Below are positions 8,792 to 17,700 of a DNA stretch of 64,000 bases, piece after piece. Each line of letters begins with the position of its first letter. The first letter of the stretch is position 1. The notes under the pieces are model-generated. The model worked only from the letters and a program-made list of their open reading frames with translations. It searched no databases and had not been told where the DNA came from. The translations under genes were made by a program, and so were the position numbers. The DNA comes from Oryzias latipes (Eukaryota > Chordata > Actinopteri > Beloniformes > Adrianichthyidae): the NCBI RefSeq assembly GCF_002234675.1, contig NC_019860.2:15306536-15370535 (forward strand), read 5' to 3'.

Positions 8792-11700
8792 GTAAGCAGC
8801 CCCACACTTTTGTCTTGTTGTGTGGCGCCTTCGTTCTGTTTTAGGCTTGGTTCCCAATAAAACTGCGATGGAAGCTAGATTTGACCCTTTAAAAACATTA
8901 AATTGAATGTTTATGTCACTTCTGCTATGTTTATTTAACTTTGAGGATAAACAATAAGGATAAGTGAACGAAAGAAATAATTTACGGATTGTACGGGTTG
9001 GATTATCTTCCCTACTTGTGACGCAACAGCCAACAGGAAGCGGTTTGCGTTGCTGCCTGTCTGTTGTGGTTTTGGAGAGTCGAGGAGTGTGTAACAGGAG
9101 TGTTGTTAATTGTTTGTCACGTTTTGAGTGATGAATGAAAGCAGCATGTGTGGCGGGAAGGGTGGGGGTGAGGGTTGGTAGCAAACGCCGGCTCGTCTCG
9201 CTTCTCCTGCCGACATGCAAACAAACACACACTCTCCGGCACGCACATTGTCTTTCTGCATTCCAGGGATTTCGCGGCGTCTGCTCTCCGCCTGTCTGCA
9301 GGCACGCAGGCGACCGTCTCTCTGTGCAGACAGACGACGGCGGAGTGAAAAAGAAAGGAATTCGCCTTTGATCAGAGCTTGTAAAACTCCCAGTGCATAT
9401 TGTCCCGGAATATTGGATTTCTTTTCTGAGTCCGACGTGCCCGGGCAGAAACTGGTGTGCGTGATGTGAAGCGGCTGGTGGGAAATGGAGTCATTTGCCA
9501 AATGGCTGCCAAATGACTGTTTTGACTGACTGTAAGGCCGGTCTCGTGCAGGCATTGAGCAATGACAGAATCCAAAATAATCTAAACACGAGTACAAGGA
9601 GTCAAAGGGCTAGCAGGGATTCTTACAAAGCAAAGAAGGTTGTCGACTGCTGATGAATCTCAAATCTATCGTCTGTATGTCTATGTCCTTTAGGACTACT
9701 GTCGTCTTGTTGGCTCTGCTTTCATTGGGTGTTCCAAAAATTAGAAGTTTCAAGTTCCAGGGGAGTTTAAAGATCACTTTTATTCGTGAACCAACAATCA
9801 TTACTTAAGAACAGAAGATAGGGTCATGTGACTGATTCTGGTTTCTGTGGAGCCGCTGTAGACGCATTTGGGATATTTGGTCGCCGCTATCCTGATAGCA
9901 TTCAAAGCCACTGGAGTGTCCTAAAGTGGGAGAAAATCTGAGGGTCGTTGAAGCATGCTCAGACAAGATCGTAGATGTTAAGCCTGAAGACAGAGCTTCA
10001 TTTTCTGCATAACTTCAAAGTCAAACATCCAAACAAATATAGACAAAATAAGTACAGTTAACGTTGGGCTTTAAGAAAAACGAGATTTTTATTGTTAAGT
10101 TTAACCATTTGACATAAATGTGCGCACACTCGTTTGTGCAATAACCCCATAGTGGTTGTTTAATGAACTGGCTCCAGTAAATAACACGTTTTTCAACCTT
10201 CCACAACTCTATGATCGCTTACGTGAATCAGCTGATTCTGATGTGGAGAAAAGCGCCTTTTCCATATCAGCTTTGCACCCGTTATACAACACTTCACGTT
10301 TTTGGCACCAGTATACATCACATTTTACTAGCATAGTTTTGCTCAACAGCCAAATCTGTTTTTCCGCAACAGAATCAGATGATTTACGTTAATTGTGTAA
10401 GCACGTAAGCAAGTGTTACATTTTTGTGTTGACTTGACATTACCAACGGTGACTTCAAAACCAGTTAAGTCCTAGCTAGCAAGGACTGACTCAATTGGTT
10501 TTCACATCACCAATCAAGTTGCGTCATTGTTAGCTACGACTCCACTGGTTTTCAAGACAACGTTCAAGTCCGGGCTGACGAGGACTGACTGTACCTGGTT
10601 TTTGCGAACTAATTTTTGTTTCAAGTTCCATCTGATTTTAAATTCACACTTTGAACTATCTAATAAAACATTTAAACATGTTTTAATCTTTGAAACAAGC
10701 AGAAGTGAAAACATTTGATTAGAAAGATGTGCTGAATGACATGTAACCGAATAGAAGATATTAGCATTAAAAGTCTAAACCTGGGACGTTTTCCCCTTTG
10801 GTGGAGCTTAAACAAGAGGCACGAGTGTGTGCAGCTCGCATTAACCAGCAGAGAGGAGCGCTTCTTTCACTCACTGGCTTAACCGACGGGGGTGGAGACA
10901 TTAATTCTCATCGGAACACCAAAAAAAAAAAGGTTTTTACAGCTTTTCATGGTGCCGATATTTCCTAAAATTCTTCCCATACCCATGTCGTTGCCGTAGT
11001 AACATGAGATTTGTCAAGTGGTTTTGTGTGGTTCCTTATGAACAAGTCAGATTTTTGTGAGGCAACTAGCACTTTTATCATACAAGTTTGGACTGACAAT
11101 TGGATTAAACAAAGGAAACTGGTCTATCGGTGTAACATTAATGCAGTCTGAAAAAGTTCAAGTGATTTCACGTTTTTAAGAGGTTGTCCCTCTGATGGGT
11201 CACAACACCAAGAGATAGGCCATAGGGTTGTGCCGATGGACGATATCATCGTCCATCGTGATGGGTGACTGACATCCCGATGGAGAGACCACCATCGTGA
11301 TGCCACGCCCCCGCCACGTTGCGCGTCGACACCATAAGCCGCGGTTACATGTACAAAATATCTTGATGGGATCAATGGTCGGATTGGAATCCAACCGTGT
11401 AGATGGGCCCAGAAAAATGTTTTCAGAATATAAAAACGTTCACTAAGGTCACAATTTCGGTCGGAATAAATCATTCGCACATGCGCAGTATTCGCACATG
11501 CGCAGTTTGAAAACCGGAAGGGGATACAACTTCCGCCGAGCGGCTTTTTTTTCCAAACTTTATTGGATGTAACAATTCAATACAAAACGATAACAGCACC
11601 GAGCGGCTATATATATTGACATGTCAGCTCGGTAAAATACGAGACGATCTTCTAAAGGCCTGTTCACACCGGGACGAATTTCGCCGGCGATTTTCGCCGA

Positions 11701-14700: not shown

Positions 14701-17700
14701 GACGATCCGAGCTGTGCTCAGACACACACGTTTAGACCCGGTTCTGAGTTCGGTTGCTTGTACCCCTAGAGCTGCAGGACGGATCGCAGTCTTAAATCTC
14801 CCACACATACCGCTCATGTACCCCCCCCCCCCTTCCCATCAAACACAAAGCTTTAATTCCGCGCTCCGCCGGTCCACTTCACTAATTAAGTGCGGGAGCG
14901 ACTACACTTCTCTTCTATTTTGCTTGTTACTTTTTCTGTTAAAGTCACTTCCCTCAGTTTATACTGGATCATCGCGGATTAGTCATTAGTTGGGAAATAA
15001 AATGAAAAAAGCAAAAAAACGAATAGCAGTTATATAAGAACGAAAAATGTAAAAATACAACCCCCCCCCCCCCCCCCCCACGATGTCATCGTCCATCACG
15101 ATGGTTGACAGCAAACATCGTCAACGGCCAAATTAGGGGACATCGCCCAACCCTAATAGGCCATAGAGTTCTATTAGAGTTCTTAAATGTTCTGATGCAG
15201 GTTTAAGGGCCAACTTCTTTTTTTTTTTAATATCTAGTGAAAAACCATGTAATCCAGATTCCAATAAAGCATTTGACCCTGTACGAGGGCTCAGGCAACG
15301 GATGCTGTCAACTGGAAACACGACGACTGAGAAGGCTGGGGTTGGAGATATGAAGACAGAAGTGTGTGTGTCAGCGGTTTTTCCTGATGGCTCCCTTGTG
15401 TCAAGGTGACCTTGGCATTTGAGTGGGGCCTTGTCATGCACAGTGTGTAAAACGTGTCGCTTCTAGAAGCCATTTTTTATTGACCACAGCAGCGTGTCCC
15501 AGTAGCACCACTGCACTCGTGGTGGGTTAGTGAATCTTTGGCCTCTTTCTGGAAGAAAGACAGGTTTTAGATTCTAGACCTTTGGTCATTGCTTCCATCT
15601 TAAATTCCAAGCTTAAACTGTGGTTTTGATGGTCTTTATACACTGGTGGCATTCAAATGTGTGTGTTTTTTTGTCTGTCTGCTGTTAGCAGCCCAAATGG
15701 TCCACAATACAGTCTGTTTTTTTTATAGATATGTTAGTTTTGCTAGAATGTTTTACCTTTACCTCATTAAGGCAGAAACAAATACAACTACAAGTTTGAT
15801 AATCGCTCAAAATCCGTATTTTCTTCGCCTCTGAGTTGTGGGTGAGAGCTCTCTGTTTATGACCCGGCCGGCGTACTTTCGATGTCACAAATATGGGCTT
15901 TTTTCAAACGACCGATGTTTTCAGACAATTTGAATTCAGATTTTGAGCTCAATTTTCTCAATAGACGTCCTCCATCATCCGAAAAATGACACATAAAACA
16001 GCATTTTCATTGGAGTGGATCTTTAAGATCAAATCCTAAAATCCATTGATGGATTTTCCTTTAAAAAAGGAATTTCTTGGATTGTTTTTTGATTTAAAAA
16101 AAATGGTTTTCTTTCGGCTTTTATATTAAGAAGTTGTGATTGGTTGTGTAAAAACTGTTTTTTAATAACCAACTGAAATGAAAAGCTGAAAAAAATCAAT
16201 CACCAAATGGACTAAATGTATGCAAGTGAACATTATTATGGCATTCATTTGTTGGGTGGGTGAAATAAAGTTTGAGAATCATACCAGAGCATCTGCTGTC
16301 AGAGGCTGCAGGTGACTCATGGATGACAGAAACCAGCTCCAAAATCAACCTCATTATCAGGATCGTTCTTCCAACTGAACCTACCAACTTAGATGAGTAA
16401 TCACGACAGCACACGGCAAATACTTCATGTCTCTTTACCCAGAAACTGTAGCAGTTGTTCATGTATTTCTGTGGCAACACCTTTTCCTTTCCCCCTCATA
16501 GAAACATGCATTAGGCTTCAACAACTTGACCCACATCTGCAAAACATTAGATTCTCTTTTGGTTTGTAGCTCTTCTCAGTTTACTTCCTCAAATTGCTCT
16601 TTTTTTGTTTTTTTGGTTGAAGTGGAGATGTTGTGGATTGTTTGGTCTACCTGGTTCTGCAGGTGTGGAAGGTTATAGTCAAATCTGTTGCATCGTTAAC
16701 AAGCTTGGAAATCAGCTTGTAAGTGAACTCTGATGAGGTTCAGCAACAGTGTGAATGCAAACAGACTGAAAAGAAGTACAGTGATCCCTCGTTTTGGTAA
16801 AAATAACCTGCGTTAGGTGAAGTTCGCAAAGTGGAATGATCGATGTTTTTAGGCTGTAAAGCCCCTCAGGACACTCTGCACTTTGATGAACATTTCAAAA
16901 CTATTATCTCTCGTTTAAACTCTCAAATAAAAACATAAAAAAAGATCTATTAGCTACCAAAGATTGAACACACGATGTTCAAGAGGCACTTAGGTTGGGT
17001 CCGAATTCCTTCACTAGATAGTGCGTTCGCCATTTTGTAGTGTTGTTCGAATATAAAATTTTAAAATTCAGTGCCCTACAAATTTTCCAGAAGTCGCTGT
17101 GAAAAACCAGTATGCATCGCTGCTCACCACAATTTAGACCACAATGCATTCCGTTTGAACAATTTTTGCGAAATAAATCTGTTTAAATGTTTTTTTTAGT
17201 AAACAACCAACATTTTTGTCACCAGTGGATTCAAAAATATTCGTTGTAAAATACTTGTATTAATTCGATTTTAACTTTGTGAAATTGGTGACGTCTTATT
17301 TTCCGTTTAAAAAAAAATGAAAGTATTAAGATTGATTGACAGTGGTCTACAGCCGATTAGAACACAATGCACTATAAAAAAAAATAATAAAAACATGCAG
17401 AATTACTCTAAAATGTTTCCAAAAAGTGAACCACAACATAGTGAGGGACCACTGTGTATCGAAAACTGATGAGAATTTGAGAAGGAAACTTTACTCAAAT
17501 CAGAAACAGCACCAACTTTTTGAGTAAGAAAAAAAAATCCTTAAAAAAAGTCCATTTAGTAAACATAATGCTTTAAGGAAGGAAAAGTCCTTTTTTGGGC
17601 AACACTGCCCTCTAATGGAGCAGCCTGTAAGTGCAGGGCATTTCTTGTAGTTTGTCCACTCTCAAAGGTGCAGTGTGAAAGCAAAAACAGAAGTACTACT

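Follow-up and report, generated by a model that had tools for sequence, protein, structure and literature searches.

In intron 3 of the bmpr2 gene of the medaka Oryzias latipes, a segment of 2.1 kb is present twice in direct succession, and the two units are identical except for one base. The array was analysed in a stretch of 64,000 nucleotides, here called the window (NCBI RefSeq assembly GCF_002234675.1, contig NC_019860.2, positions 15,306,536 to 15,370,535 of the forward strand); all coordinates below refer to the plus strand of this window. On the evidence of the assembly sequence, the array is probably (roughly 0.6) genuine, a tandem duplication that arose recently in Hd-rR medaka through repair by end joining or template switching. 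The event itself is of a known kind, and the twist is the composite geometry that it left behind, with one breakpoint inside a hAT transposon.

Unit 1 (10890..12998; 2109 b) comprises 325 b of unique intron, a target-site duplication and a hAT element that lacks its last 48 b. It is followed by a single T at 12999 and by unit 2 (13000..15107; 2108 b), and the two units are adjacent and arranged head-to-tail with one junction, as in a tandem direct duplication. When the units were aligned globally, all 2108 aligned columns were identical and a single gap was found; BLAST gave 99.953% over 2109 columns, which equals one gap. The gap falls into a poly-A run, which is A16 in unit 1 (11783-11798) and A15 in unit 2 (13893-13907). 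The remaining runs of at least 9 b (A11, C12 and C19) are of equal length in both units. The T at 12999 differs both from the A that follows unit 2 (15108) and from the G that precedes unit 1 (10889) and is therefore a true one-base filler. For unit positions 1-332, the best 40 candidates scored in the genome included no further match, and the rest of the unit matched transposon copies. Since a BLAST of the window on itself found no other direct repeat of at least 150 b at 90% identity or more, and since the 30-mer spanning the join occurs only once in the genome of 734,051,031 bases, the array is far beyond chance. No Rfam match was obtained in 10000-16000. A preliminary description of this DNA had reported units of 2109 and 2108 bp that differ by one A, a left boundary in unique flank, a right boundary inside a hAT-like element and a join with an extra T and no homology. 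The global alignment, the missing second match for the first 332 positions, the placement of 15107 at 48 b before the element end at 15155 and the bases around the join reproduced each of these points.

The outer transposon was then delimited by its ends and target-site duplications. The complete hAT copy 2 (13333..15155; 1823 b) starts with TAGGGTTG and ends with CAACCCTA, the short terminal inverted repeats expected of a hAT element, whereas copy 1 (11223..12998; 1776 b) is truncated and has a left end only. Because the duplication stops 48 b before the right end, the window contains two hAT left ends and one right end. The 8-bp target-site duplication ATAGGCCA was read to the left of copy 1 (11215..11222), to the left of copy 2 (13325..13332) and to the right of copy 2 (15156..15163). 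Four reading frames of the element had no match in Pfam, and the outer element is predicted from its sequence to be a non-autonomous hAT element. Both copies carry a nested PIF/Harbinger-like element (11656..12302 in copy 1 and 13766..14411 in copy 2) with the target-site duplication TAA and the ends AGGCC...GGCCT. From the left end of copy 1 to the right end of copy 2, a composite hAT unit of 3933 b can be read (11223..15155). It encloses 333 b of host flank (13000-13332), the last 8 b of which are the target-site duplication, and its outer target-site duplications match, with ATAGGCCA at 11215 and 15156. The 8-bp duplications thus turned the earlier assignment "hAT-like" into hAT; the nested element, the composite geometry and the fact that the target-site duplications are intact had been overlooked.

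Other copies of the family were drawn from lists of the best 40 candidates, which gave 37 rows and, after 5 were dropped as repeats of the same locus, 32 distinct copies. Identical 8-mers were found by script on both sides of 31 of them, including one (L027) whose 8-mer, ACACACAC, carries little information. In the 32nd copy (L007) the 8-bp duplication was seen once its altered right end was read.

The join itself gives the best view of how the array arose. When the 150 b on either side of the two original breakpoints were compared, the longest common words were 7-8 b, the longest of them an A-run word, and no shared word was placed at the breakpoints themselves. Non-allelic homologous recombination is given as the prevailing model for tandem copies in PMC3744419, in the part consulted. 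Here, an unequal crossing-over between flanking repeats is scarcely credible, because there is no homology at the breakpoints, and the added base also contradicts it. The preliminary description had decided for end joining or template switching on these grounds, and the short shared words and the one-base filler bear it out. A templated origin of the filler was considered and rejected: the 10-mer at the join, GTTGTGGGTG, recurs at 15835, yet 26% of 3000 random joins find a similar match. With regard to a polymerase-theta signature, no microhomology was seen at the join, and a filler of one base is too short to be traced to a template.

We propose that a replication end may have broken or stalled in the right subterminal zone of the hAT element, near a C19 tract and foldable repeats. 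This end would have been joined to, or restarted on, the sister DNA at a point 2.1 kb upstream, through end joining of the polymerase-theta or the classical type or through template switching. One base would have been added at the join and the stretch then copied again. As a by-product, 333 b of intron would have become enclosed by the left end of one hAT copy and the right end of the other, with the same target-site duplication at both. The C19 tract lies at 15061..15079, 28 b before the right breakpoint (12952-12970 in unit 1), and is followed by a foldable subterminal stretch that holds the breakpoint (15080..15145). The DNA folding energy of this stretch is in the strongest 4.4% of the 80-nt windows of the 64 kb. 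The tract and the folding together hint at a stall or a break within the end of the element.

A different origin of the broken end was also considered. After a transposase had excised the element from one sister, both flank ends could have been extended on the intact sister in an abortive gap repair. The left end would have read across the element as far as 15107, the right end in the opposite direction across it as far as 10890, and the two would then have been end-joined with the T. The exact order of flank, truncated element, filler, flank and complete element, with intact target-site duplications, is predicted by such a repair, and the truncation near the element end fits it. The family also looks young, with identical 8-mers at 31 of 32 distinct copies from among the best-scoring hits and a median length of 0.008 for the end branches. 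The product is, however, indistinguishable from that of a simple tandem duplication. In the part of the survey of animal Pack-TIRs consulted here (PMC8277862), the breakpoints are skewed to the element interior and breaks without excision are favoured. We therefore hold gap repair after excision to be improbable. A direct action of the transposase is far less probable still. Alternative transposition, with reversed ends or between sister chromatids, is known for the maize hAT element Ac and includes tandem direct duplications, as the consulted part of PMC3744419 describes. The reversed-ends reaction leaves 8-bp target-site duplications at the junctions, but none is found at the join in the window, which lies 48 b inside the element.

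Several points weigh against a recent duplication by repair at a stalled or broken end. The left breakpoint is unremarkable in its folding, as 83% of the windows fold at least as well, and the folding argument, resting on one breakpoint only, is weak. Gene conversion or polishing could make the two copies look younger than they are. In addition, near-identity is also expected if the array is an assembly error, in which the overlapping ends of contigs or of the read graph were joined and the 2.1-kb overlap was not collapsed, so that only a single copy exists in the fish. Repeats make up most of the unit, and only one homopolymer base differs; such a single-base difference is a common long-read error. 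The assembly was built with FALCON from about 109x of subreads with a mean length of 6,519 b, which exceeds the 4.2-kb array, and the contigs (N50 about 2.5 Mb) were polished with Quiver and Pilon and separated by 1-kb gaps (PMC5705604, in the part consulted). According to the same part, 17 Hd-rR contigs were recognised as misassembled and were split, and 0.3% of the BAC-end pairs were inconsistent. The window contains no N, whereas the contig joins bear gaps, and in view of this and of the building and polishing record an error at a contig join is unlikely. An error inside a contig may still have occurred. The source strain is inbred, so that haplotigs are not expected, and a clean join with one added base is a normal signature of repair. 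Overall, an assembly error is an unlikely explanation, though less so than any of the other alternatives, and a real duplication is preferred.

To place the duplication in the history of the locus, the window was compared with other copies of the compound. In a tree of the 32 outer elements, the element of the window stood beside the copy on C20 (support 96/86). The presence of the inner element requires at least 2 changes on this tree. This is explained by an independent insertion in the C10 copy, since the window and C20 have the inner element at the same TAA site, whereas in C10 it occupies a TTA about 20 b from there. For C10, the other site and the outer tree accordingly rule out a joint transposition of the three nested copies. 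The C20 sister compound (L003, C20:7536022-7537900) has a target-site duplication of its own, ATGTCTAA. For the window and C20, the sequences make it likely that the outer and the inner element moved together, one transposon carrying another. Two separate inner insertions at the same TAA may have occurred instead. They are conceivable because the inner tree had no well-supported branch (its C10 row included about 20 b of the outer element and its L049 row ran over), because a cleaner alignment of the inner element showed no substitution common to the window and C20 alone, and because the two differ by a stretch of about 45 b. This stretch lies beside the poly-A run and is present in C20; it is missing from the inner element of the window, and both units lack it.

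Between the compounds of the window and C20, 6 substitutions were counted over 1822 columns, with 2 of them in the outer part, and there are indels as well; units 1 and 2 show 0 substitutions in 2108 columns. If the units were as diverged as the compounds, zero substitutions would be expected with a probability of about 0.001; from the outer element alone (2 in about 1170) the value is 0.03. The duplication thus probably took place after the window and C20 had separated, and on this comparison it is probably the youngest step in the history of the locus. The upper 95% bound of the divergence between the units is 0.14%. If about 1e-8 mutations arise per base in each generation, this bound corresponds to an age under about 70,000 generations, and the absence of substitutions agrees with the very recent event suggested earlier.

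Among the 32 distinct copies, the window was the only locus with a tandem copy that takes in the element and its flank. As most of the left flanks examined measured about 1.1 kb and most of the right flanks about 1.5 kb, larger tandem events would escape notice. Direct repeats within the flanks were seen at several loci (L005, L022, L034 and L037). Two pairs were considered as further tandem duplications in the family and rejected: the pair on C16 (L009) consists of two separate insertions with different target-site duplications, and the pair on C22 (L008) is an inverted nested insertion. At the latter locus (C22:22195518-22199203) a hAT copy has inserted, inverted, into another copy of the same family.

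The inner element was assigned by its ends and its 3-bp target site. PIF/Harbinger elements prefer TWA sites, and the inner element occupies TAA in the window and in C20 and TTA in C10. Its relatives occur at many other sites of the genome. In 5 of the 8 solo relatives that were read, TAA was found on both sides (L043, L044, L045, L047 and L048), and L046 had TGA on both sides. L042 had no clean pair in the flanks read, and the right flank of L049 was outside the stretch read. A target-site duplication of 3 bp is the rule for PIF/Harbinger elements (PMC2213677, in the part consulted). The length of the inner element varies beside the poly-A run (11783-11805 and 13893-13914): in a comparison of the window with L003 and L042-L049, about 40-50 b are missing from the window, L042 and L048 but present in the other copies that were read. 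The inner elements of C10 (L004, 1947-2629) and of the window (13766-14411) are independent insertions into the same hAT family only about 20 b apart, at TTA and TAA, hinting at a preferred target of the inner family.

The host gene was identified from its exons, with the splice sites called from sequence motifs instead of transcripts. The best match of the kinase exon at 21542-21880 was to BMPR2 structures (3g2f, E 7.3e-36), and a candidate exon 4 with a transmembrane segment was read from the frame at 18297-18404. The donor of exon 3 lies at 8791/8792. The frame of exon 3 had no PDB match at E 0.001 and no Pfam match, and we take it to be bmpr2 exon 3. The array lies inside intron 3, since exon 3 ends at 8791 and exon 4 is at 18297-18404; the kinase match, the exon 4 candidate and the exon 3 donor support the location already given in the preliminary description. 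Neighbouring matches in the window were to FAM117, an arfaptin-like domain and WD40 repeats, in agreement with what is presumably the order BMPR2-FAM117B-ICA1L-WDR12. From the intronic position, we infer no effect of the duplication on the bmpr2 coding sequence. Other tandem repeats were observed in the window. An 82-bp minisatellite of about 7.5 copies lies at 34246-34880, downstream of the exon matching FAM117 (33409-33705). About 8.6 degenerate copies of a 46-bp repeat, also readable as a 139-bp period, are found at 38732-39126, and a degenerate 23/46-bp repeat is found at 61792-61902.

If the duplication is real, it is very young and the order of events, from the family burst to the nesting and the duplication, is largely readable. 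It would then show how a single repair event can place adjoining host DNA between the two ends of a hAT element, and it could serve as a convenient marker of variation when Hd-rR stocks are compared with other medaka strains. In the case of an assembly error, the reference intron needs a small correction. A bolder and rather doubtful extension is that tandem duplications breaking inside a cut-and-paste element offer a one-step route to a host-carrying transposon. The locus would be a freeze-frame of this route, with a 3.9-kb unit (11223-15155) that a transposase could move together with 333 b of bmpr2 intron, and surveys that discard transposon-linked parental copies would miss the class. Literature searches on tandem duplication with hAT, gap repair or composite, and on bmpr2 in medaka, returned no paper on the locus by title, among the matches listed.

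The components of the array were finally compared with known systems. Like non-autonomous, MITE-like hAT elements (MITE, miniature inverted-repeat transposable element), the element of the window has 8-bp target-site duplications, short inverted ends and no Pfam match, but it differs in holding a nested second element. The polymerase-theta tandem duplications of C. elegans brc-1/brd-1 described in the consulted part of PMC7368036 are also head-to-tail, and their junctions include cases with no homology and with insertions. They range from 1 kb to 1 Mb, the majority being about 10-20 kb, and arose in repair mutants; for the 2.1-kb duplication in the window, polymerase-theta is one of several candidate origins. 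The Ac reversed-ends duplications, according to the same part of PMC3744419 as above, likewise combine a hAT element with a tandem direct duplication, but they have 8-bp target-site duplications at the junctions, where the window has none.

The closest likeness in geometry is to the animal Pack-TIRs, in which host DNA lies between the ends of an element with terminal inverted repeats (TIR). The consulted part of PMC8277862 lists 370 of them in 100 animal genomes, 208 of the 370 being hAT and 160 of 281 lying within 15 kb of their source, and template switching is proposed for single-copy Pack-TIRs made by gap filling. In the window, host DNA is likewise found between a left and a right end with matching outer target-site duplications. 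The survey asks for a parental copy that is unlinked to the element; here the parental flank adjoins the same element, and for this reason we do not class the array as a Pack-TIR in the sense of the survey. The survey discarded parental copies that have transposons within the flanking 100 b, so that the composite geometry falls outside it, and it states that elements linked with their parental copies may have been overlooked. In the animal Pack-TIRs as in the window, host DNA is held between transposon ends, but in the window the enclosed DNA is the flank directly adjoining the element itself, and a second copy of the element accompanies it.

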